Assembly (NCBI GenBank): GCA_016185205.1
Contig: JACPOA010000014.1
Coordinates: 1 to 43,967, forward strand
Source of the DNA: Hyphomicrobiales bacterium
GTDB taxonomy: Bacteria > Pseudomonadota > Alphaproteobacteria > Rhizobiales > Xanthobacteraceae
Reading direction: 5' to 3'
DNA length: 43,967 bases
Below are positions 274 to 15,169 of the stretch, one piece after another. How positions within the stretch are numbered: the stretch's first letter is position 1; every line of letters starts with the position of its first letter. The notes below the pieces were generated by a model. The model did no database searches. It saw only the letters and a list, made by a program, of their open reading frames with translations, and was not told the DNA's origin. Both the position numbers and the translations under genes were made by a program.

Positions 274-3200
274 ATGAACGCCAAATATCCCGGGATTCCC
301 AACGTCATCCATGGAAACGGTGCCATCGCCGAGGTGATGGGCCATGTGTGCGGCGGGGTCATCGGTTATCCGATCACGCCATCCACGGAGATATCGGAAA
401 TCTACGAGGCGTTCCGGTCGAGCGGCGGCTGCAATGTCTGGGACAAGCACCCGTTCTTTTTCGAGCCGGAAGGCGAACATTCCGCGCAGAGCGGCGCGCT
501 TGGCGCGGCGCTGACCGGCGGCAAATACGTTTCCAACGCATCGTCGAGCCAAGGCATCCTGTACGGACTCGAATCGCATTACGTCACCGTCGGCAAGAAG
601 GTCGGCGGCTTCGTGTTGCATGTGGCGGCCCGCGTCGTCTCCAAGCATTCGCTCAACGTGATGGCGGGTCATGACGACGTCTACGCGCTGCTGCAGTCCG
701 GTTACACGATCCTGTTCGGCAGCAATCCGCAGGAAGCCGCCGATCTCGCCGCGATCTCCTACAAGCTCAGCGCCCTGTCGCTGATCCCGGTTGCCAACGC
801 CATGGACGGCTTCGCCACCAGCCACATGCTGTCGGAAGCCTTGATGCCCGAACCGGAACTGCTGCGGGAATTCCTCGGCGATCCCAGCAGCCGCATCAAA
901 TGCCCGACGGTGGCGCAGGAGATGTTGTTCGGCGCCAAGGGCCGCGTGTTTCAGCTGCAGCGTTACCTTGCGCGGCACCAGAACGACTTCATGCCGAGCG
1001 ACCTGAAGAAGGTGAACGCCTTCCTCGCTGCAACCGCCGACGACATCGAACGCGACTATGCAGGCGCGCTGATCGAGCAGACGCTTGCGTGGATTCCGGA
1101 AGAGCTGCGCAGCCAGTGGTACCGCCAGTGGATCAACGCCAATGAAAAGGGAACGCGCCAACGCGTTCCCGCGCTGGTCGATATACACAATCCTGGCCTG
1201 ACCGGCGGCGTGCAGAACCAACCCGACTTCCAGGCCGGCTCGGCCGACCACCGCACGCATTTCGTCAACGAGGTCCCGCGTTTCGCCCGCGAGGTGATGC
1301 AGGAATACGCCGCTTTGACCGGCCGGGAATACGGCCCGATCAAGACCTTCATGTGCGACGACGCCGAAACGGTGATGATCGGCCTCGGCTCGGTCACCGA
1401 CGATGCCGAAGCGGTCGCGACCTACCTGCGCGGAAAGGGCAAGAAGGTCGGCGTCATTTCAGTCAAGCTGCTGCAGCCGTTCCCGGAAGCCGAAGTCGTT
1501 GCGGCGCTGCACGGCAAGAAGGCGGTCACCGTGCTGGAGCGCTCGGACGTCACCGCGTTGACCAGCATGGTGACGCAGGCGCTGTTCAAGGCGTGCGAGA
1601 ACGCCGATGGCATTCGTCATCCCGGTATCCCGGCGCTCAAGAAGGTGCCGAAGATCACCACCGCGATCTTCGGCTTGGGTGCCCATGACCTGCAGCCGCG
1701 TCACCTGATTGCCGCGTATAAGAATATGGAGACCTGCAACGTCCCATTCGTCTATCTCGGCTCCCAGTTCTTCGCGAAGGACCCGTCGCCGCGCATTGCC
1801 GCGTTGCAGGACAGGCTGAAGGCCGCCTATCCGGAAACCGAGCTGATGGCGCTGGAAACCGAGCCGAACCCCAGCCTGCTTCCGAAAGCGGCGTTCCGCG
1901 TCCGCTTCCACTCGGTCGGTGGCTACGGAACGATCGCCACCGGCAAGCTATTGACCGACATCCTTGCCGGCGTGCTCGATCTCCACTCGAAATCGTCGCC
2001 GAAATACGGGTCGGAGAAAAGCGGCGCGCCGACCAATTATTACATCACGCTGAGCCCCGAGCCGGTGCTGCTCACCAACGCCGAGCTGGAAGACGTCGAA
2101 ATCGTCGTTTCGCCGGATCACAGGGTGTTCAGCCACTCCAATCCGCTGCGCGGGCTGGTGGCAGGCGGCACATTCATCCTGCAATCGCAGCTTCCGCCGG
2201 TCGAGGTTTGGCAGGAACTGCCGGCGCAGGCGCGCAAGACCATCCGCGACAGGAAAATCAACGTCTATGTCGTCGACGGCTTCGCGGTTGCCAAACGGCA
2301 CGCGCCGACGCCGGAGCTGGAAACCCGCATGATGGGCATCGCCTTCATCGGCGCGATCTGCGGGCATGTCGACCGCATTGCGGCGGGGGCTTCGGAAGAG
2401 GTCATGCTGAAGAAAATCCAGCAGCAGATTTCCAAGAAGTTCGGCGCCAAGGGCGGCGCCGTCGTCGAAGGCAATATGGCGGTGATCCGCGAAGGGCTCG
2501 AGGCGACCCAGAAGCTCAACTACAACGATCCGGAATTTGTGCAGGCGGAAAAGGCCCCGGTGCGGGCGAACGGCCGCGGTGTCGCGATTTCGGCCGCGAT
2601 GTGCCGTGCCGCCGGGTCGGCATCGAGCGCCGGATTCCTCGACCGGGACTACTACGACGACATGGTGGCCGCCCCGTTCCGGGACGGCACCATCGCCGAA
2701 GCGCCGGTGCTGCCTGGCACCGGTCTGTTCATGCCGGCGGGAAGCGCCGCGTTCAAAGATAAGGGCATGTTCCGGCGCGATGCGCCGGAGTTCATCGCCG
2801 ATCTGTGCACCGGCTGCATGGAATGTGCGCTGGTCTGCCCGGACGCGGCGATTCCGAACACGGTGCACGACATCCACGACCTGCTGCTCACCGCCATCCG
2901 CCAGCTCGATATCGTGGAGACACAGCGCGAAGCGCTGCGCGGCCAGGTCCATACGCTCAACGACGCGGTGCGCGAAATCTATCGGCACGAGAAGGAGCCC
3001 AAGCCGTTCCACCAGATCGTGGCAGCGGCGGCGGACGAACTCGACATCGACGACGCCGTGCTGCGCCGCAATCTCGGCAAGCTGGCCGATGCGCTGACCG
3101 TGTTCCCGGTCGCCAAGACGCGGCCGTTCTTCGACACCATGGAGAAGGCGGTTCCCGGCAGCGGCGGGCTCTATTCGGTCGCGATCGACCCGTGGAAATG

Positions 3201-5262
3201 CACCGGCTGCCTCGAGTGTATCGACGTCTGCGGACCGCATGCGCTGGTCGAGCATGAACAGGACGCGGCGCTACTCGAAACGCTGCAAACGCGGTTTGAA
3301 TTCCTCAGCCGGACGTCCAACACGCCGGCCCGCTTTGTCGATGGAGCAACCAAGCCCGACGGCGACACCAAGCGGTTGATGCTCGATCGCAACAACTACT
3401 ACGCGACCACCGGCGGTCACGGCGCCTGTCGCGGTTGCGGCGAGGTCACCGCCATCCGGCTCGTCACCGGCGCCAACCACGCGATCCACGACAAGCGGCG
3501 CAAGGAGCATATCCGTGAGGTGGAGAGCCTGATCGAGCGGCTGAACGCCAAGCTGCCGTCGGTGCAGAACAGCGAGCAGGATCCGAAGCGTTGCGAGCGC
3601 ATCGCGCAGACCATCGCGACGCTGGAGAAGCGGCTGTATCTGCTCGAGAGCGGTCCGAGTGGCAATGGCCCGGCCAGCACGGTGATCGCCAACGCGACCG
3701 GCTGCAGCAGCGTGTACGCTTCGACGTTCCCGTTCAACCCGTACAACGACCCGTGGGTCAACAGCCTGTTCCAGGACACTCCCGCCGTGGCCAAGGGCAT
3801 CTTCGAGGGCCTGAGCGCGGAAGCGAGCGACGACATTCGAGCGTTGCGTATCGCCAAGCTGGATCTCGACGACGATTACGATCCGCAGGTGCACGACCGG
3901 TTCTTCCGCCTGTTCGGATGGGCTCAGTTTACTCCTGAGGAGCTGGGCCTGCTGCCGACCGTGATCAGCATGGGCGGCGACGGCGCGACCTACGATATCG
4001 GGTTCGGCGCATTGTCGCGGCTTCTCAGCACGACGACACCGATCAAGGTCGTGGTGCTCAATACCGGCGCCTACTCGAACACCGGCGGACAGGCATCGAC
4101 GGCGAGCCTGACCGGCCAGGACTCCGACCTTAGCCGGTTTGGCTCCGCCCATAGCGGCAAGCAGGACGAACGCAAGGAGCTGGGCCTGATCGCCGCGTTC
4201 CATCCGAACGTCTTCGTGGTCCAGGCCTGCACCGCGCTGCAGGGACACTTCCTGAAGAACGTCATCGACTACCTGAACCACAACGACTCGCCGGCGGTGC
4301 TCGACGTCTACACGCCCTGTCAGCCGGAGCATGGTATCGCGGATTCAACCTCCAACCGGCACGCCCGCATGGCGGTGGAAAGCCGCATGAATCCCGTGTT
4401 CGTGCACGATCCGCGCCGCGCCGGCGATCTGCACGGGCGGTTCTCGCTCGACGGAAATCCGGACGCCGGCAAGGACTGGACGACCAACACGATCGAGTAT
4501 GTCGAGGACGGCGCCACCAAGCTGTTGCAGGTGCCGTTGACCCCGGCCGACTTCGCGCTGACCGAAGGCCGGTTCAAAAAGCAATTTCGACGCCTCGCAG
4601 CCGATGCTGTCGGCGTGCCGGTGCACGAGTACATCGAGCTGAGCGTGGCTGATCGCGAGGGCAAGACGCCGTTCGTCTGGTCGACCGGCGACGACAAGAA
4701 GCTGATCAAGCTCGAAACGTCGCAGACGCTCATTCATCTGGTCCAGGAGCGCCGGAAATACTGGCGCACCCTGCAGTATCTGAGCGGGCTCGATGTCGCG
4801 AAGCTGGATGCGGATCATCACGCCGAGCTGGAAGCCCTGCGGCGCCAGTACAAGGAATCGGTGGAGGCGCGCGAATCCTCGATCGACTCGATCGCCCGCG
4901 CGATGTCGGAGCTGGCGTCGTCGTCCAATGCGCCGCCCTCCAACGGTTTCGCGGCGGCTTTGATGCCGGGAGCGGGGGTCGCGGCCACGGCGGCGGCGCC
5001 CGACGCTGCCGCGGCGACCAACGGGTCGGCCGTGGTCACGCTCGCCGAAGAAGACCTTGCGAAGTGCAACAACTGCAAGACCTGTTATCAGGACCTGAGC
5101 GAGCTGTTCGAGAAGACCAGGATCGTGGTCGACGGTACAGCCAAGGAGGTGGCTCACCTTATTCCGGGAGCGCTCGATCACATCAAGATCACGCCGGAAC
5201 TCAAGAGCAAGCTAACCCGTGTCGCCGCCAACTGTGACGCGGAGATCATCCATGCGCACTGA
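274..5262 (+). CDS. Single-chain 2-oxoacid:acceptor oxidoreductase, PFOR/NifJ-like, unusually long
   Basis: 1662 residues; ATG preceded by GGGGTG at 263-268. The family oxidatively decarboxylates a 2-oxoacid with CoA, passing electrons through TPP and Fe-S clusters to ferredoxin or a partner flavoprotein. Visible order: alpha domain (about 8-240, GYPITPSTEI at 31-40), beta-like domain (330-500), gamma domain (542-705, FHSVGGYGT), two 4Fe-4S motifs (Cys845/848/851/855 and Cys976/979/982/986), then the TPP domain (CRGCGE at 1052-1057, Cys1144, GGDG near 1234, NTGAYSNTGGQ at 1263-1273, Cys1349). All four proximal-cluster cysteines are therefore present. This is the PFOR order, but PFORs are usually about 1170-1200 residues. 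The excess is a 120-residue insert between the two clusters, a charged helical insert at about 1070-1125, and a C-terminal tail of about 250 residues ending in a CX2CX2C motif (1598-1604) plus Cys1654. The gene overlaps the next by 11 nt. The substrate (pyruvate, 2-oxoglutarate or other) cannot be read from the sequence. Confidence 0.85.
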   Translation: MNAKYPGIPNVIHGNGAIAEVMGHVCGGVIGYPITPSTEISEIYEAFRSSGGCNVWDKHPFFFEPEGEHSAQSGALGAALTGGKYVSNASSSQGILYGLESHYVTVGKKVGGFVLHVAARVVSKHSLNVMAGHDDVYALLQSGYTILFGSNPQEAADLAAISYKLSALSLIPVANAMDGFATSHMLSEALMPEPELLREFLGDPSSRIKCPTVAQEMLFGAKGRVFQLQRYLARHQNDFMPSDLKKVNAFLAATADDIERDYAGALIEQTLAWIPEELRSQWYRQWINANEKGTRQRVPALVDIHNPGLTGGVQNQPDFQAGSADHRTHFVNEVPRFAREVMQEYAALTGREYGPIKTFMCDDAETVMIGLGSVTDDAEAVATYLRGKGKKVGVISVKLLQPFPEAEVVAALHGKKAVTVLERSDVTALTSMVTQALFKACENADGIRHPGIPALKKVPKITTAIFGLGAHDLQPRHLIAAYKNMETCNVPFVYLGSQFFAKDPSPRIAALQDRLKAAYPETELMALETEPNPSLLPKAAFRVRFHSVGGYGTIATGKLLTDILAGVLDLHSKSSPKYGSEKSGAPTNYYITLSPEPVLLTNAELEDVEIVVSPDHRVFSHSNPLRGLVAGGTFILQSQLPPVEVWQELPAQARKTIRDRKINVYVVDGFAVAKRHAPTPELETRMMGIAFIGAICGHVDRIAAGASEEVMLKKIQQQISKKFGAKGGAVVEGNMAVIREGLEATQKLNYNDPEFVQAEKAPVRANGRGVAISAAMCRAAGSASSAGFLDRDYYDDMVAAPFRDGTIAEAPVLPGTGLFMPAGSAAFKDKGMFRRDAPEFIADLCTGCMECALVCPDAAIPNTVHDIHDLLLTAIRQLDIVETQREALRGQVHTLNDAVREIYRHEKEPKPFHQIVAAAADELDIDDAVLRRNLGKLADALTVFPVAKTRPFFDTMEKAVPGSGGLYSVAIDPWKCTGCLECIDVCGPHALVEHEQDAALLETLQTRFEFLSRTSNTPARFVDGATKPDGDTKRLMLDRNNYYATTGGHGACRGCGEVTAIRLVTGANHAIHDKRRKEHIREVESLIERLNAKLPSVQNSEQDPKRCERIAQTIATLEKRLYLLESGPSGNGPASTVIANATGCSSVYASTFPFNPYNDPWVNSLFQDTPAVAKGIFEGLSAEASDDIRALRIAKLDLDDDYDPQVHDRFFRLFGWAQFTPEELGLLPTVISMGGDGATYDIGFGALSRLLSTTTPIKVVVLNTGAYSNTGGQASTASLTGQDSDLSRFGSAHSGKQDERKELGLIAAFHPNVFVVQACTALQGHFLKNVIDYLNHNDSPAVLDVYTPCQPEHGIADSTSNRHARMAVESRMNPVFVHDPRRAGDLHGRFSLDGNPDAGKDWTTNTIEYVEDGATKLLQVPLTPADFALTEGRFKKQFRRLAADAVGVPVHEYIELSVADREGKTPFVWSTGDDKKLIKLETSQTLIHLVQERRKYWRTLQYLSGLDVAKLDADHHAELEALRRQYKESVEARESSIDSIARAMSELASSSNAPPSNGFAAALMPGAGVAATAAAPDAAAATNGSAVVTLAEEDLAKCNNCKTCYQDLSELFEKTRIVVDGTAKEVAHLIPGALDHIKITPELKSKLTRVAANCDAEIIHAH

Positions 5263-8098
5263 CGCATCAAGCCCCGCGGGCGCCAAAGTCGACGATCTCG
5301 ATCGCTATCGCCAGGCGAGCCGGTCGCTCGAGGTCACGCAGAACGAGATCGCGGAACTGGAACACAGCGAGGCTTTCGAGGTCTTCCAAAAACAGCTCGG
5401 GTTGCTGCGCAAACGGCTGCTGAACGATCCGCAGTCGCTGCGGCAGGTGTTCGTCGACGACGGCACCCAGGCGATCGTGTGGGAGTTCAAGCAGGACAAG
5501 CTCGGCGGCAACTTCATTAAGACGCTGTGGAACCTGTTGCTGCGCGACGACGACATGAGTTCGATCCTGCAGCGTTTCATCTGGAACGTTCCGCTCAAGT
5601 TCAAGCGCAAGTTCATCGCCGCGATCGATGCCCATCTGTCGGACCGCTACCCGATGTTCAAGGGCCTGTCGCAGGGCTGGCCCGCCCAGAACAGCATTCC
5701 GCCCTACATCCGCCCGCCGGAAGTGCGCGCCAAGGACTTCGATCTCGTGAATCAGGGCTATCTCGGCTACATGAGCCTCGGCTACAGCGCGCGCGAGGTC
5801 GATCTGCTGGTGTGGCTGGAGGTGCTGCGCGACAAGCAGTGCGAGGACCGGCCGTGCGAGATCGGCGTGCCGGTCGAGGGCAATGCCGAGAACAAAGGCG
5901 GCTGCCCGGTCAAGATTCATATCCCGGAGATGCTTGAACTCTTGGGTACCGGCCGGTTCAAGCAGGCGCTCGAACTGATCGAAGGCTGCAATCCGCTGCC
6001 GAATGTCACCGGTCGTGTCTGTCCGCAGGAAATGCAATGTCAGGGTGTCTGCACGCTGACCGGAAAGCCGATCGAAATCGGCCAGATTGAATGGTTCTTG
6101 CCGGAGCGCGAGCGGCTGGCGAACCCGCAAGGGTCGGCCGAGCGCCTTAAGGCCTATGCCAGTCCGTGGGCGAAGGCCGCAAAGCCGCCGATCGCGGTGG
6201 TCGGATCCGGTCCCGCCGGCCTGATCAACGCCTATCTGCTGGCGACTGAGGGATATCCCGTCACGATCTTCGAGGCCTTTCATGAACTCGGCGGTGTGCT
6301 GCGCTACGGCATCCCCGAGTTCCGGCTGCCGAATACGCTGATCGACGACGTGGTCGGCAAGATCAAGCTGCTGGGCGGCAGGTTTGTCACCAATTTCGTG
6401 GTCGGCAAGACCGCGACCATCGAGGATCTCAAGAAAGCCGGGTTCTGGAAGATCTTTGTCGGCACCGGCGCTGGCTTGCCGCGCTTCATGAACGTGCCGG
6501 GCGAGCACCTGCTGGGCGTGATGTCGGCCAACGAATTCCTCACCCGCGTCAACCTGATGCAGGCGCGGATCGAGGATTACGAAACACCGCTGCCGGAGGT
6601 CGCCGGCAAGCAGATCATCGTCATCGGCGGCGGCAATACCGCCATGGACGCGGCGCGCACCGCCAAACGGCTGGGCGGCATCGTCACCATCGTCTATCGC
6701 CGCACCAAGTCCGAGATGCCGGTGCGGGTGGAAGAGCTGCACCATGCGCTGGAAGAAGGCATCGAGCTGAAGGTGCTGCGGGCGCCGCGCGAGTTCGTGA
6801 GCGAAAAATCCCACGCGGTTTGCCACACCATTCTCGACGTCATGGAACTTGGGCCCCCCGACACGTCGCACCGGCGTGCGCCGGTCGTCACCGGCAAGAC
6901 CGAGACGATGCCGGTCGATCTCGTCATCATGGCACTCGGCAATACGTCGAACCCGATCATCAAGGACTCCGAACCCAACCTCAAGACCACCAAATGGGGC
7001 ACGATCGGCGTCAAGAGCGGATCGCAGCAGACCTCGCTCGACGGCGTCTATTCCGGTGGCGATGCCACGCGCGGCGGGTCGACCGCCATTCGCGCGGCTG
7101 GCGACGGTCAGGCGGCGGCGCGCGAGATCGTCGGCGATATCCCGTTCACCGCGGCGCAGATCAAGCAACTCGTCGCCAGTGCCGCGCGCTACACCGATCA
7201 GGGCCAGGCGTCCCAGACCATCGTCAAAAAGGTCGATCTCGCCGGCGGCATTGTCGAGCTCACCGTGAACTCGCCGCTGGTCGCCAAGGCGGCGCAGGCC
7301 GGACAGTTCGTGCGCGTGCTGCCGACGCCGAAGGGCGAGCTCATTCCGCTGACGCTCGCCGATTGGGACGCCGAGGCCGGAACCATCGACCTGGTCATCC
7401 AGGGAATGGGCACCAGCACCATCGGCATCAACAAGATGGCGGTCGGCGAAGCCTTCAGCGGCATCGCCGGCCCGCTCGGCCAGCCGAGCAAGTTGCATCG
7501 CTACGAGGGCGACCCGACGGTGGTGTTCGTCGCCGGCGGCGTTGGCCTGCCGCCGGTCTACCCGATCATGCGGGCGCATCTGCGGCTGGGCAACCACGTC
7601 ACTTTGATCGCCGGCTTCCGCACCGCGAGCCTGTTGTTCTGGACCGGCGAGGGCGAGCGCGTCGACCGGCTGCAGAAGGAATTCCCCGAGACGCTGGACG
7701 TGATCTACGCCAGCAATGACGGCACCTTCGGCGTCAAAGGCTTTGTCACCGGCCCGCTGCAAGAAATGTTGGAGCAGAACAAGGCCGGCAAAGGCCGCAA
7801 GATCGCCGAGGTGGTCGCGATCGGCCCGCCGCTGATGATGCGGGCGGTTAGCGATCTGACCAGGCCCTACGCGGTGCCGACCATCGCCAGCCTGAACTCG
7901 ATCATGGTCGATGCCACCGGCATGTGCGGCGCCTGCATGGTGCCGGTGAATCTCGACGGCAAGCTGGTGCGCAAGCACGCCTGTATCGACGGGCCCGAGA
8001 TCGACGCGCATATCATCGATTGGGACAAGTTCCTGCCGCGCTTCAACCAGTTCAAGTCGCAGGAGCAACAGAGCCGGGTGAAGCACGGCCTGGCTTGA
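5252..8098 (+). CDS. Multidomain NAD(P)H flavoprotein: GltD/NfnB-like module fused to NfnA/DHODB-type FNR and 2Fe-2S module
   Basis: 948 residues. The ATG at 5252 is chosen over an upstream in-frame GTG at 5219 because GGAG (5241-5244) sits 7 nt before it and it overlaps the preceding stop. After about 200 N-terminal residues that I do not recognise comes a GltD-type N-terminal Fe-S domain (Cys218, 246, 257, 263, 267). Next are an FAD-binding GSGPAG (about 318-323), an NAD(P)-binding GGGNTAMDAA (about 459), and SGGDATRGG closing the GltD-like part. The C-terminal 290 residues look like the ferredoxin-reductase fold of NfnA/dihydroorotate dehydrogenase electron-transfer subunits and end in Cys892, Cys895 and Cys911, probable 2Fe-2S ligands. 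In NfnAB and SudAB these two parts are separate subunits. Overlap with the 2-oxoacid oxidoreductase suggests the two work as one complex linking 2-oxoacid oxidation to NAD(P)H. That coupling is inference. Confidence 0.82.
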   Translation: MRTDASSPAGAKVDDLDRYRQASRSLEVTQNEIAELEHSEAFEVFQKQLGLLRKRLLNDPQSLRQVFVDDGTQAIVWEFKQDKLGGNFIKTLWNLLLRDDDMSSILQRFIWNVPLKFKRKFIAAIDAHLSDRYPMFKGLSQGWPAQNSIPPYIRPPEVRAKDFDLVNQGYLGYMSLGYSAREVDLLVWLEVLRDKQCEDRPCEIGVPVEGNAENKGGCPVKIHIPEMLELLGTGRFKQALELIEGCNPLPNVTGRVCPQEMQCQGVCTLTGKPIEIGQIEWFLPERERLANPQGSAERLKAYASPWAKAAKPPIAVVGSGPAGLINAYLLATEGYPVTIFEAFHELGGVLRYGIPEFRLPNTLIDDVVGKIKLLGGRFVTNFVVGKTATIEDLKKAGFWKIFVGTGAGLPRFMNVPGEHLLGVMSANEFLTRVNLMQARIEDYETPLPEVAGKQIIVIGGGNTAMDAARTAKRLGGIVTIVYRRTKSEMPVRVEELHHALEEGIELKVLRAPREFVSEKSHAVCHTILDVMELGPPDTSHRRAPVVTGKTETMPVDLVIMALGNTSNPIIKDSEPNLKTTKWGTIGVKSGSQQTSLDGVYSGGDATRGGSTAIRAAGDGQAAAREIVGDIPFTAAQIKQLVASAARYTDQGQASQTIVKKVDLAGGIVELTVNSPLVAKAAQAGQFVRVLPTPKGELIPLTLADWDAEAGTIDLVIQGMGTSTIGINKMAVGEAFSGIAGPLGQPSKLHRYEGDPTVVFVAGGVGLPPVYPIMRAHLRLGNHVTLIAGFRTASLLFWTGEGERVDRLQKEFPETLDVIYASNDGTFGVKGFVTGPLQEMLEQNKAGKGRKIAEVVAIGPPLMMRAVSDLTRPYAVPTIASLNSIMVDATGMCGACMVPVNLDGKLVRKHACIDGPEIDAHIIDWDKFLPRFNQFKSQEQQSRVKHGLA

Positions 8099-8531: not shown

Positions 8532-10178
8532 ATGACCGACGCGCCACGCAACTATTCCGATCTGCACGAGCATATCGCAGCGCTGGAACAGCGCGGGCTG
8601 CTGCGCCGAATCGATCGTCCGATCGACAAGGACGCCGAAATGCATCCGCTGGTGCGCTGGCAGTTCGTCGGCGGCATCGACCAGGCGGAGCGCAAGGCCT
8701 TCCTGTTCACCAATATTGTCGACGGGCTCGGCCGCAAATACGACATCCCGGTCGTGGTCGGCGCCATCGCCGCCAATCCGGAGATCTACAGCGTCGGCAT
8801 GCGCGCGCCGCTCGCCGACATCCAGGCCAAATGGGATCACGCGATCGCCCATCCGGTCGAGCCGCGGCTGGTCAACGAGGCGGTCTGCCATGAGGTCGTC
8901 ATCGAAGGCGACGCGTTGAAAGGCGAGGGCCACGGCCTCGACCGGCTGCCGATTCCGATTTCGACGCCGGGTTTCGACAGCGCGCCGACTTTGACAGCAA
9001 CCAATGTCATCACGCGCGATCCCGACACCGGCGTGCAGAACATGGGCACTTATCGCGCCGCTCTTAAATCTCCGGATCGCCTGGTGGTGCGCATGGCGAC
9101 GCGCGTCGGCGGCGCCGGCGGTTATCAGCACTATCTCAAATACCAGAAGCGCGGAGAGCCGATGCCTTGCGCCATCGTGCTCGGCTGCCCGCCTTACGTG
9201 GCCTTCATGGGGCCGCAGAAGCTGCCGCTCGGCGTCGACGAGATCACGGTGGCGGGCGGTTTGGCCGGCGGGCCGATCAACATCGTGCGCGCGCGCACGG
9301 TCGATCTCACGATCCCGGCGGAATCCGAGCTGGTGATCGAAGGTCTGATCGACACCGAATATCTCGAGCCGGAGGCCCCGTTCGGCGAGTCGCACGGCCA
9401 TGTCGCGCTCGAGGAGTTCAACATGCCGATGCGGGTGACCGCGATCACGCACCGCAGGAACCCGATCATTCCGTCCTATATCAGCCAGGTGGCGCCCAGC
9501 GAATCAAGCGTGATCAAGCGCGTGGCCTACGAGCCGCTGTTCACCGCGCATCTGCGCAACACGCTCGGCATTCGCGGCGTCAAGAAAGTGTCGTTGCACG
9601 AGCCGCTCACCGGACTGCTGCGCGTCACCGTGATCACGCTGGAGAAGGGCACCTCGCGCACCGAAATCTGGCGCGCGCTCAGCGGCGCCGCCTCGTTCAA
9701 GGGCGACTGCGGCAAGATCTGCATCGCCGTCAACGAGGACATCGACGTCGACAATGCCGACGGACTGTTGTGGGCGATGGCCTATCGCATGAATCCGATC
9801 GAGGACGTGCAGATGCTGCCGCATCGCGGCCAGGGCCATGGCCCCAAACGCGAGCACGACCAGGAAGAAGACTCAACGCTGCTGATGGACGCCACCATGA
9901 AGGGCGACATGCCGCCGCTGGCGCTGCCCAAGCAGGAATACATGGAGCGCGCCAAGGCGATCTGGCAGGAGCTCGATCTCGGGCCCTTAAGGCCGCAGGC
10001 GCCGTGGTTCGGCTATTCGCTCGGCGACTGGTTGCCGCAATGGGACGAGGCGGCCAAGCGCGCGGCGCAAGGCCGCTATCTCGACAACGGCAAGATCAGC
10101 GAGAAGCAGCGCCGCAAGGGCCTCAAGCCGGAGACGAAGTTTCGGCCGGAGAAAGACGGCGGTAACGGCAAGGGCTGA
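8532..10178 (+). CDS. UbiD-family (prenylated-FMN) decarboxylase
   Basis: 548 residues, slightly longer than UbiD of E. coli. UbiD enzymes reversibly decarboxylate aromatic or alpha,beta-unsaturated acids using prenylated FMN made by UbiX. Arg175 in NMGTYR and the pair Glu281/Glu286 in EPEAPFGESHGH match the Arg-Glu-Glu arrangement of the family (Arg173, Glu277, Glu282 in fungal Fdc1). The start ATG has only a weak ribosome site. No UbiX gene is in the window. The protein ends in a lysine/arginine-rich tail. The substrate is not determined: ubiquinone biosynthesis, a phthaloyl-CoA-type decarboxylase or another aromatic acid are all possible, and the nearby benzoate genes make an aromatic substrate attractive but unproven. 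The stop lies 3 nt from the convergent next gene. Confidence 0.86.
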   Translation: MTDAPRNYSDLHEHIAALEQRGLLRRIDRPIDKDAEMHPLVRWQFVGGIDQAERKAFLFTNIVDGLGRKYDIPVVVGAIAANPEIYSVGMRAPLADIQAKWDHAIAHPVEPRLVNEAVCHEVVIEGDALKGEGHGLDRLPIPISTPGFDSAPTLTATNVITRDPDTGVQNMGTYRAALKSPDRLVVRMATRVGGAGGYQHYLKYQKRGEPMPCAIVLGCPPYVAFMGPQKLPLGVDEITVAGGLAGGPINIVRARTVDLTIPAESELVIEGLIDTEYLEPEAPFGESHGHVALEEFNMPMRVTAITHRRNPIIPSYISQVAPSESSVIKRVAYEPLFTAHLRNTLGIRGVKKVSLHEPLTGLLRVTVITLEKGTSRTEIWRALSGAASFKGDCGKICIAVNEDIDVDNADGLLWAMAYRMNPIEDVQMLPHRGQGHGPKREHDQEEDSTLLMDATMKGDMPPLALPKQEYMERAKAIWQELDLGPLRPQAPWFGYSLGDWLPQWDEAAKRAAQGRYLDNGKISEKQRRKGLKPETKFRPEKDGGNGKG

Positions 10179-12370: not shown

Positions 12371-12442
12371 AGCATTGGTCTCGAATTCCCGCTTTTGTCG
12401 ACGTTGACGGTTTTCAGCGGGTCACAGGAGCGGGCTTTGCCC

Positions 12443-15169
12443 ATGCCAAATACCTCTGCCATCAGTGTCGCCGGCCAAAGCGGGGTGCAGGTCTTCGAGA
12501 CCCGCAAGCAATATTCCGTTCTGACCATGAATACGTTGGCCTTTACGGTCAACTTCGCCATCTGGACAATGTTTTCCGTCATCGGCATCCGGATCAAAAG
12601 CGAGCTGGGTCTTAACGAGACTGAATTTGGCTTGCTGGTCGCGACGCCGATCCTGACGGGATCGCTGATCCGTCTGCCGCTCGGGATTCTGACCGATCGC
12701 TACGGCGGCCGCGTTGTGTTTCTCATCCAGATGATCCTGGTGGCGATCCCGACTTACGGCTTGGCATTCGCGACTGAGTATTGGCAATACCTCTTCATCG
12801 GTCTTTTCGTCGGTCTGGCCGGCGGCTCGTTCGCGGTCGGTATCGCCTACACCTCCGCCTGGTTCCCGAAAGAAAAGCAGGGCACCGCGATGGGCATCTT
12901 CGGCGCCGGCAACGCCGGCGCCGCGGTCACGAACCTGGCGGCGCCGCTGATCATCGTCGCCTTCGGCTGGCGCGCGGTGCCGCAAATCTATTCGGTCACC
13001 ATGTTGGCGATGGCGGTGCTGTTCTGGTTCTGCACCTATCCCGATCCGAAGCTTGAAGAGCGTCGCAAGAAGGGCAAGTTTCCCTCGCTGATCGAACAGC
13101 TCGCGCCACTGGCGGAAATGCGGGTCTGGCGGTTCTGCCTGGCCTACTATTTCGTGTTCGGCGGGTTCGTCGCGCTCGCGCTCTGGCTGCCGAAATATTA
13201 CGTAACGGAATACGGCCTGACGCTTCAGTCCGCAGCCTTCATCACGATGTTCTTCACGCTGCCGTCCGGTCTCATTCGCGCGCTCGGCGGATGGATCTCC
13301 GATAAGTTCGGCGGCAGCACCACGACCTGGTGGGTGTTCTGGGTCTGCATCGTTTGCCTGTTTTTCCTCGCTTATCCGCCGACCACGCTGGTGGTCCACG
13401 GCGTCAAAGGCAATGTCACCTTCGACATGGGGATCGGCGTCGTCTTTTTCACGATCCTCATCTTCGTTGTTGGCATTGCGCAAGGCATCGGCAAGGCCAG
13501 CGTTTACCGCGAACTGGCCGACTTCTACCCGGCGAACATGGGCTCCGTGGGCGGTTTGGTCGGCGTGATCGGCGGCCTCGGCGGCTTCACGCTGCCGATC
13601 GTTTTCGGCATCGCCGTTGACGCCACCAACGTGCGCAGCAGCGCGTTTATGCTGATGTATGCCGTTGTCGCCGGCGTGATGGTGTGGACTTGGCTGGCGG
13701 AGAAGGGCGAACGCGCAGCGGTGCTGGAGCGCGAACCAGGGCTGCGTGACCAGATGGTCAAGGAACACCTGGTCGGCGTGCACGCCGCTCGTCGCTGGCT
13801 CACCGACTGGCGTCCGGACGACGCGAAGTTCTGGCAACAGCAGGGCCGGGGTATTGCTTTGCGCAACCTGATCCTCTCCATGCCGCCGCTGTTCCTATCT
13901 TTCGCGGTATGGATGGTCTGGAGCGTGGTGGTGGTCGAACTGCCCCGCATCGGCTTCCAGTTCACCACCAGCCAACTGTTCTGGCTGGCGGCCGCGCCGG
14001 GCATTTCGGGCGGCGCGCTGCGGCTGGCCTATGCCTTCGTCGTGCCGATCTTCGGCGGCCGGAACTGGACGGTGTTCAGCACCGCCTCGCTGCTGCTGCC
14101 AACGCTTTGGATGGCCCTGGCAATCCAGAACCCGGCGACGAGTTACGCGGTGTTCGTTGCCATCGCGCTGTTGTGCGGATTGGGCGGCGGCAATTTCTCC
14201 TCCAGCATGGCCAATATCAGCTTTTTCTTCCCGAAGAAGGTGCAAGGTACGGCGCTTGGCTGGAATGCCGGTCTTGGCAATCTCGGCGTCGGCGTGATGC
14301 AGGCTGTGGTGCCCTTGACCATCTATGGCGGCGCGCTCGCCTTCATGGGCGGCTCCTCGCAGAACTATACTGACGGTGCTGTCGTCACCAAAGTCTGGCT
14401 GCAGAACGCCGCCTATATCTGGGTGCCGTTCATCCTGCTGGCGACCGTCGCGGCCGCCTGGGGCCAGAACAATATCCGCGGCGTCCAGGCGACCTTCCGC
14501 GACCAATTGGGCATCTTCCAGCGCAAGCACGCCTGGATCCTGGCGTGGCTCTACACCGGCACGTTCGGTTCGTTCATCGGATTTGCCGCGGCGTTCCCGC
14601 AATTGCTGTCGACCTATTTCCCGACATCCGAAGCCAAGCATTGGGCCTTCGTCGGCCCGCTGCTGGGCGCGCTGGTCCGCCCGCTCGGCGGCTGGTTGTC
14701 CGATCGACTCGGCGGCGGCAAGGTCACCTTCTGGAACTTCGCCGTCATGCTGGTGGCCGCGATCGCGATCCTGGTATTCCTGCCGTCCGCTTCGGGCAGC
14801 TCTTCGCCATCCTGGTTCTTCGCGAGCTTCGTCTTGCTGTTCGTCACGACCGGCATCGGCAACGGCTCGGTGTTCCATGTCGTCCCCAATGTCTTCCTCA
14901 AGCTGCACACACGCGTGGCCGGGAAGAGCAAGGCGGCACAGGGTCGTGCGGTCGCCGAAGGCGAAATCGAAGCGTCGGTTGCGCTTGGATTTACCGCGGC
15001 GATTGCCGCGCTCGGGTTGTTCTTTATCCCGGCGGTGATCGGCATCTCCATCAATGCGACCGGCACGCCCGGAACGGCTCTGGCCGTGTTCGTCGTGTTC
15101 TACCTGACGTGTCTGTTGGCGACATGGTGGTGGTACCGGCGCAAAGACGCGGAAGTTCGCTGCGACTGA
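12443..15169 (+). CDS. narK: NarK1-NarK2 fusion nitrate/nitrite transporter
   Basis: 908 residues from ATG 12443. TTG 12437 is 6 nt from GGAG and is an alternative; TTG 12395 lies upstream of the likely transcript start. Two complete MFS units of about 12 membrane segments each are joined by a charged linker near residue 440-460. The first carries the NarK1-type signature GLAGGSFAVGIAYTSAWFP and GAGNAGAAVTN, the second the NarK2-type GLGGGNFSSSMANISFFFP and NAGLGNLGVG. In Paracoccus the equivalent fused NarK combines a proton-coupled nitrate importer and a nitrate/nitrite antiporter, feeding the cytoplasmic NarG site. It is the first gene of the nar operon and sits behind two TTGA-N6-TCAA sites. 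Confidence 0.92.
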   Translation: MPNTSAISVAGQSGVQVFETRKQYSVLTMNTLAFTVNFAIWTMFSVIGIRIKSELGLNETEFGLLVATPILTGSLIRLPLGILTDRYGGRVVFLIQMILVAIPTYGLAFATEYWQYLFIGLFVGLAGGSFAVGIAYTSAWFPKEKQGTAMGIFGAGNAGAAVTNLAAPLIIVAFGWRAVPQIYSVTMLAMAVLFWFCTYPDPKLEERRKKGKFPSLIEQLAPLAEMRVWRFCLAYYFVFGGFVALALWLPKYYVTEYGLTLQSAAFITMFFTLPSGLIRALGGWISDKFGGSTTTWWVFWVCIVCLFFLAYPPTTLVVHGVKGNVTFDMGIGVVFFTILIFVVGIAQGIGKASVYRELADFYPANMGSVGGLVGVIGGLGGFTLPIVFGIAVDATNVRSSAFMLMYAVVAGVMVWTWLAEKGERAAVLEREPGLRDQMVKEHLVGVHAARRWLTDWRPDDAKFWQQQGRGIALRNLILSMPPLFLSFAVWMVWSVVVVELPRIGFQFTTSQLFWLAAAPGISGGALRLAYAFVVPIFGGRNWTVFSTASLLLPTLWMALAIQNPATSYAVFVAIALLCGLGGGNFSSSMANISFFFPKKVQGTALGWNAGLGNLGVGVMQAVVPLTIYGGALAFMGGSSQNYTDGAVVTKVWLQNAAYIWVPFILLATVAAAWGQNNIRGVQATFRDQLGIFQRKHAWILAWLYTGTFGSFIGFAAAFPQLLSTYFPTSEAKHWAFVGPLLGALVRPLGGWLSDRLGGGKVTFWNFAVMLVAAIAILVFLPSASGSSSPSWFFASFVLLFVTTGIGNGSVFHVVPNVFLKLHTRVAGKSKAAQGRAVAEGEIEASVALGFTAAIAALGLFFIPAVIGISINATGTPGTALAVFVVFYLTCLLATWWWYRRKDAEVRCD

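Follow-up and report, generated by a model that had tools for sequence, protein, structure and literature searches.

A giant pyruvate oxidoreductase-like protein with a putative ferredoxin arm and its Nfn-like flavoprotein partner in a Hyphomicrobiales genome

Single-chain pyruvate:ferredoxin oxidoreductases (PFOR or NifJ, TIGR02176; for example those of Moorella, 6cin, and Desulfovibrio africanus, 1b0p) and NfnAB flavoproteins (NfnI of Pyrococcus furiosus, 5jca, and the Thermotoga protein, 4ylf) are the described systems closest to a pair of overlapping genes on the forward strand of contig JACPOA010000014.1 from a Hyphomicrobiales bacterium. The whole stretch of 43,967 nucleotides is called the window below, and the features of the two genes are on its forward strand. 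The upstream gene (274..5262) encodes a giant single-chain 2-oxoacid (probably pyruvate) oxidoreductase of 1662 amino acids, hereafter POR. It shares with PFOR the domain order, the thiamine pyrophosphate (TPP) site and three [4Fe-4S] positions, but it exceeds the Moorella enzyme by about 490 residues and differs from it by insertions, a tethered ferredoxin domain and a dedicated Nfn-like partner. This partner, encoded by the downstream gene (5252..8098), is a fused NfnB-NfnA-like flavoprotein of 948 amino acids from its ATG. It matches both halves of NfnAB over most of their length and keeps the positions of the b-FAD Arg, of the Glu and of the [2Fe-2S] ligands, but departs from NfnAB in its fused NfnB-NfnA order, an additional N-terminal region, altered distal cysteines and the POR beside it.

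Other 2-oxoacid oxidoreductases are linked to nicotinamide through proteins of their own. The PFOR of Euglena and Cryptosporidium (PNO) is hard-wired to NADP+ by a fused flavodoxin reductase resembling cytochrome P450 reductase, not by Nfn, and the multi-subunit KorABC of denitrifiers has a dedicated nicotinamide flavoprotein, KorC. The phenylglyoxylate:NAD oxidoreductase PadEFGHI likewise has such a flavoprotein but is multi-subunit, and its PadH comes from a different flavoprotein family. We know of no NfnA half or tethered ferredoxin in PadEFGHI or KorABC. Judging from sequence, we consider it fairly probable that the two proteins described here form a dedicated pyruvate (2-oxoacid):NAD(P) oxidoreductase of two subunits with a ferredoxin arm, most likely confurcating with NADH or working in reverse as a synthase.

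The two frames overlap by 11 nucleotides (5252..5262), and since homologues of both genes adjoin in other organisms (with POR 58-92% identical), their proximity is not due to chance. The POR has the Pfam domains of PFOR in the same order, namely POR_N, PFOR_II, POR, Fer4 motifs and TPP_enzyme_C, and its closest PDB entries in a sequence search are the Moorella (6cin) and Desulfovibrio PFORs. Nevertheless, none of its best 25 of 32 NCBIfam matches reached a cut-off: the top one, the PFOR equivalog TIGR02176, scores 384.1 bits for a cut-off of 911.35, and the Pad models also stay below theirs (PadG 102.8/700, PadI 57.7/700, PadE 27.4/300). Membership in the PFOR superfamily is indicated by the TPP domains, the gamma domain and the twelve ligand cysteines of three [4Fe-4S] clusters, arranged as in PFOR. 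The flavoprotein passes the cut-off of NF009415/PRK12779 over nearly its full length (1794.8 bits for 1519, residues 10-948). Its Pfam domains are Fer4_20 and Pyr_redox_2 (the NfnB/GltD half), followed by NAD_binding_1 and DHODB_Fe-S_bind (the NfnA half), and its closest PDB entries are NfnI chains and related proteins. An earlier note on this DNA, made from the sequence, had described a 1662-residue chain in PFOR domain order overlapping by 11 nucleotides a 948-residue fusion of GltD/NfnB-like and NfnA/DHODB-like halves; frames, Pfam domains and the invariant cysteines all agree with this description. The PFOR-type ligands mentioned there stand as well, but the C-terminal ferredoxin domain and its tether, the flavoprotein N-terminus and the altered distal cysteines had been overlooked.

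Within the POR, the POR_N domain (residues 29-201, 358..876) includes the YPITPS motif and the Arg120 region, and is followed by PFOR_II (residues 364-432, 1363..1569) and the gamma-like POR domain (residues 549-743, 1918..2502). Fer4 motifs are found near residues 838-860 and 965-986, corresponding to a first [4Fe-4S] motif (Cys 845/848/851/855, 2806..2838) and a second one (Cys 976/979/982/986, 3199..3231). The segment 3427..4320 carries the ligands of the TPP-proximal cluster (Cys 1052/1055/1144/1349) and the TPP motif GDG...YSNTGGQ, with TPP_enzyme_C at residues 1229-1296. After removal of six truncated or broken sequences from those of the 32 named loci, 26 remained and were aligned with the window protein; in these 27 proteins none of the twelve cysteines of the PFOR-type clusters varies. 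Aligned blocks to 6cin place the first two Fe-S motifs about 75 residues further apart than in the Moorella enzyme (101 vs 26), and other insertions occur near residues 205-300, 864-962 and 1065-1130. Thr35, Arg120 and Asn1269, which we take to be equivalents of the pyruvate residues of PFOR, are retained in all six PORs aligned at these positions, and the substrate is probably pyruvate or a close 2-oxoacid.

The C-terminus of the POR consists of a flexible stretch rich in Ala, Gly, Pro, Ser and Thr (residues 1551-1588, 4924..5037) and a ferredoxin domain with a CxxCxxC...C pattern (Cys 1598/1601/1604/1654, 5047..5253). These four cysteines are found in 26 of the 27 aligned PORs, the exception (L016) being a frame that ends early. 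A sequence search gave a weak match of this region to a PDB ferredoxin (7m1o, E 0.096). In the 26 proteins other than L016, the tether measures 29-48 residues and consists on average of 76% Ala, Gly, Pro, Ser and Thr (59-87%), vs 37% for the whole protein. It is the least conserved among eleven POR stretches compared, and the predicted local distance difference test (pLDDT) score is below 50 across residues 1541-1587 in the AlphaFold2 model. We read tether and domain together as a swinging ferredoxin arm.

In the flavoprotein, the two NfnI chains find their counterparts in residues 207-626 and 657-941, so that both Nfn halves are present: an NfnB-like b-FAD/NADPH half (6182..7132) with Arg358 and Tyr482-Arg-Arg, and an NfnA-like a-FAD/NAD half (7217..8074). 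The latter contains the [2Fe-2S] ligand positions Asp887 (assumed by us to be a ligand), Cys892, Cys895 and Cys911 (7910..7984). The two halves are preceded by an N-terminal region (residues 1-190, 5252..5821) which is predicted to be helical, its first 70 residues at low confidence, and for which no family match was obtained at the limits used and the PDB sequence search returned weak matches only. Next comes the altered distal-cluster motif Cys197-x4-Cys202 (5840..5857), then the remaining NfnB-type ligand positions Cys218, Cys257, Glu260, Cys263, Cys267 and Glu280 (5903..6091). Cys197, Cys202 and Cys218, the last followed by Pro and separated from the others by a loop of variable length, are found in 35 of 35 sequences. 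At the distal-cluster site a canonical Cohaesibacter NfnB reads CERCLMCPQPACIEGCP, and the flavoprotein lacks this canonical set of cysteines. Invariant in all 27 flavoproteins aligned are Arg358, Glu260, Glu280, Tyr482-Arg483-Arg484, Asp887 and Cys892/895/911. Counted on the PDB-search alignment, Arg358 corresponds to Arg201 of P. furiosus NfnI, which is said to hydrogen-bond N5 of the b-FAD (PMC10482914; this and the other papers below are cited from extracts of their text). The proximal cluster of NfnB is stated to have a Glu ligand (PMC10482914), which would be either Glu260 or Glu280 here. In StnC, a Lys replaces this Glu and the FAD is argued not to bifurcate (PMC10482914).

By published description, rather than by the sequence of M. 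curtisii (ADI67453) itself, the flavoprotein fits what Liang et al. 2019 call Pattern C Nfn (PMC6405883): it shares the fusion, the C-terminal a-FAD/NAD/[2Fe-2S] half and the approximately 200 residues that Pattern C has in excess of other fused Nfn. Pattern C is reported from M. curtisii and from alpha- and gammaproteobacteria, and is one of three kinds of fused Nfn termed uncharacterised (PMC6405883). In the phylogeny of Poudel et al. 2018 (PMC6085437), M. curtisii, followed by a proteobacterium, stands at the base of Nfn. In the available text of Liang et al., Pattern C is not given a POR partner, yet the legend of Figure 2 lists PFOR near nfn homologues (PMC6405883), so that the pairing is perhaps partly in print. 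The earlier proposal of an undescribed complex must thus be narrowed, as the flavoprotein already has a family model (NF009415/PRK12779) and a published pattern; for the pair itself, we found no description among the papers listed by a search of the open-licence PMC literature (titles and abstract openings). Another alphaproteobacterial fused Nfn, AadN of Rhodopseudomonas palustris, differs in that it is assigned to Pattern B and is genetically tied to benzoyl-CoA reductase, and a giant POR is not mentioned in the extract available (PMC9973337).

The neighbourhood survey that the earlier note had called for supports a steady association. Relatives of the POR (58-92% identical) were found at 32 named loci by a scan of named contigs with exact peptide patterns, which is biased towards close relatives. 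Their hosts include Rhodoplanes, Rhodopila globiformis, Blastochloris sulfoviridis, Roseiarcus fermentans, Cohaesibacter, Vibrio barjaei and many metagenome-assembled genomes. At 31 of these loci the flavoprotein gene lies directly downstream on the same strand, and at the remaining one (L022) the contig ends inside the POR gene. The flavoprotein start, as projected by homology, lies between -115 and +48 nucleotides from the POR stop (median -17, 31 loci). Neighbourhoods were compared at 27 of the 32 loci, with genes called by our own codon-usage score and hence approximate: the POR-flavoprotein pair alone is common to all of them, the next commonest neighbour family being present at seven. 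Searching in the other direction, the PRK12779 cut-off is exceeded in nine of 398 genomes of the phylum, and besides the pair studied here the other eight carry the C-terminal part of a POR directly upstream. These nine genomes are not independent, because eight belong to one genus. A giant-POR profile, run on the draw of 398 under the same handles, detected 11 genomes, namely those nine and two with a more distant POR (G309 and G403). The distribution is patchy: at 1e-100, matches occur in none of 23 congeners and in one of 16 genomes of the same order (G037, with the distant form), and no relative of the flavoprotein was detected on plasmids at 1e-150.

The distant giant PORs are 34-38% identical to that of the window and provide a second context. 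All sixteen cysteines are kept in the three that were aligned (G037, G309 and G403); the C-terminal four-Cys ferredoxin is present in these three Rnf-linked PORs and in G057, which represents a second Nfn-linked group, and its motif is kept in two plasmid-borne distant PORs. The Gemmatirosa POR ends in CPVSAIHPG, a ferredoxin-like ending. All five distant PORs whose surroundings were examined (L069, L105, L106, L115 and L116) sit in rnf clusters, so that an arm-bearing giant POR is accompanied by either of two NAD(P) modules that use ferredoxin. The Rnf-linked form ranges over Pseudomonadota, Gemmatimonadota and Bacteroidota. In G037, G309, G403 and Gemmatirosa kalamazoonensis the gene order is rnfB, POR, rnfC, rnfD, while in Persicobacter psychrovividus it precedes rnfC-rnfD-rnfE-rnfA, with rnfB further on. 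Curated cut-offs are exceeded by rnfC and rnfD in G037, G309 and G403, by rnfA in G309 and G403, by rnfE in G403 and by rnfB in G037 (TIGR01944); the rnfB of G309 and G403 match RnfB-like models below their cut-offs, and the 1e-30 limit used may have hidden TIGR01944. The rnf genes on plasmids were named solely by similarity to those of these three genomes. No rnfC over cut-off was found in the genome that hosts the window. This alternation of Rnf and Nfn supports the idea of the ferredoxin arm as a wire, and the Rnf-embedded POR may be a PFOR coupled directly to the Rnf ion pump. The papers retrieved by the literature search above contained no description of an Rnf-embedded giant POR, nor is a PFOR link present in the available extract of a paper on Rnf (PMC12174285).

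We propose the following mechanism for the Nfn-linked pair. A 2-oxoacid would be decarboxylated at the TPP of the POR, and the electrons would cross the three PFOR clusters to load a fourth one in the tethered ferredoxin domain. The arm would then swing to the flavoprotein and dock at its altered distal cluster, after which the b-FAD would reduce NADP+, most likely in a confurcating reaction that draws on NADH via the NfnA half. Adding up the PFOR and Nfn equations, the net reaction would be pyruvate + CoA + NADH + 2 NADP+ -> acetyl-CoA + CO2 + NAD+ + 2 NADPH. The redox potentials of these couples should put it near reversibility, and the pair might thus alternatively run backwards as an NADPH-driven 2-oxoacid synthase. 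Free ferredoxin would not be needed, which would suit facultative hosts. NADH-coupled confurcation is plausible given that the bifurcation-linked Arg and Glu are kept, although the distal motif is altered. In its most specific form, the pair would be a hard-wired confurcating pyruvate:NADH:NADP+ oxidoreductase which dispenses with free ferredoxin, uses its ferredoxin tether much like a lipoyl arm and represents one of two sister designs, the other being mounted on the Rnf pump; to this form we give tentative credence, somewhat short of even. The pair is likely to serve at low oxygen or in redox balance, as the host genome has narGH and a pyruvate dehydrogenase E1 over cut-off and several hosts of the pair are, as we understand, purple non-sulfur bacteria.

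Several observations weigh against this interpretation. The non-standard distal cysteines could mean that the electron entry point is changed or lost. The b-FAD Arg alone does not prove bifurcation, because StnC also has an Arg here (R239) beside an FAD argued to be non-bifurcating (PMC10482914). In the Rnf-linked clade the giant POR occurs without this partner, and its putative substrate specificity is deduced from the presumed equivalents of PFOR residues. Nor do structure models help much: AlphaFold2 models of the flavoprotein (27 sequences) and of POR residues 780-1662 (26 sequences) are weak (pLDDT 70 and 63), with a good fit for the NfnA half (5jca_S, TMt 0.90), a poor one for the NfnB half (TMt 0.48, root mean square deviation 12.8) and a TM of 0.23 or less against PFOR for the POR part. 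The fold matches are to NfnI and PFOR, but in the surroundings of the cluster ligands the models are not good enough to locate a fourth distal ligand. The physical complex of POR and flavoprotein, like the direction, the substrate and the bifurcation, is a putative feature of the pair. The altered distal motif would also fit a pair that does not bifurcate and is a plain pyruvate:NADP+ (or NAD+) oxidoreductase, with the NfnA half as a mere second nicotinamide site. Euglena PNO and phenylglyoxylate:NAD oxidoreductase would be its functional likenesses, and the host genome itself offers a simpler precedent, with padE, padG, padH and padI over NCBIfam cut-offs. Some Nfn homologues are indeed reported not to bifurcate (PMC9973337). 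On the other hand, all 27 proteins retain the NfnA half with its [2Fe-2S] ligand positions, the Arg at the b-FAD and the two Glu residues, and we regard this alternative as rather unlikely. Independent action of the two proteins, in which the POR would reduce free ferredoxin, the flavoprotein would be an ordinary Nfn and adjacency would reflect co-regulation, has the precedent of canonical PFOR and Nfn, which act separately. However, the searches made yielded neither a flavoprotein lacking the POR nor a member of the close POR clade lacking the flavoprotein, and both the built-in ferredoxin and the altered distal motif argue against it; we hold it to be highly improbable. The putative joining of 2-oxoacid oxidation to NAD(P)H in a dedicated two-protein machine, as first proposed from the sequence, is supported by anatomy and conserved adjacency.

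It had also been suggested that the pair supplies free low-potential electrons, as ferredoxin, to the reduction of benzoyl-CoA or other aromatic CoA-esters. The host genome, in which alone among pair-bearing hosts benzoyl-CoA reductase was assessed, does carry class I genes of the bcrABCD type and, likewise over cut-offs, two genes for later parts of the pathway, the window contains genes for benzoate-CoA ligase, boxC and the alpha subunit of 4-hydroxybenzoyl-CoA reductase, and the fused Nfn AadN is needed by R. palustris for growth on benzoate (PMC9973337). However, AadN has the other domain order of Pattern B, no POR partner being mentioned in that extract; a KorA-type 2-oxoacid oxidoreductase gene over cut-off stands beside the bcr pathway genes, on the other strand; and a tethered ferredoxin speaks against a free supply. 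In addition, the neighbourhoods of the pair are not common to the 27 loci and include no conserved aromatic genes, for which reason an operon with aromatic genes was rejected as a general feature. Given the KorA-type gene next to bcr, the further Kor, IorA and pad genes of the host (two more KorA-type genes with KorB-like neighbours below cut-off, and an IorA over cut-off) and the distance of the aromatic genes of the window from the pair (about 21-28 kb), the suggestion is unsupported, and we judge it very improbable indeed. A role in feeding nitrogenase was likewise rejected, as no nifH over cut-off was found in the host genome.

Some further loci deserve mention. In the host genome, L075 (G000:C29) has class I benzoyl-CoA reductase genes near phenylacetate-CoA-ligase-like and KorA-type genes. 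At L092:3482-8330 (G000:C25), the gene for a PRK12771-like GltD-type flavoprotein (661 amino acids, below cut-off) precedes a KorA-type gene, which exceeds its cut-off, and a KorB-like one; this flavoprotein next to another 2-oxoacid oxidoreductase is perhaps KorC-like. After the pair at another named locus (L029:16839-21602) come genes for an unassigned protein of 253 amino acids, for a PRK12771 member that exceeds the cut-off and for the large subunit of a hydrogenase, the latter best matched, below cut-off, by an NAD(P)-type sulfhydrogenase; L008:16970-22956 has similar genes by clustering only. In the window, a UbiD-family decarboxylase gene (8532-10178) lies directly downstream of the pair, and just upstream the C-terminal end of a gene (1-92), presumably resembling pntB (transhydrogenase beta), is cut by the contig end. 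The gene at 12395-15169 encodes a double transporter of 924 amino acids, in which both halves are of MFS type and the second is NarK-like; it adjoins another narK and narGH.

The steady pairing with a giant POR provides the Pattern C branch of Nfn with a testable function. If the confurcating, hard-wired arrangement is true, the supposedly earliest branch of Nfn (Poudel et al. 2018) would gain a physiological electron partner, and if the tethered ferredoxin works as proposed, bacteria might be able to carry out very low-potential pyruvate chemistry with no free ferredoxin pool. The Rnf-linked sister clade suggests, in turn, a PFOR wired to an ion pump. These designs may be relevant to bioenergetics and to metabolic engineering, for NADPH supply or as pyruvate synthase.

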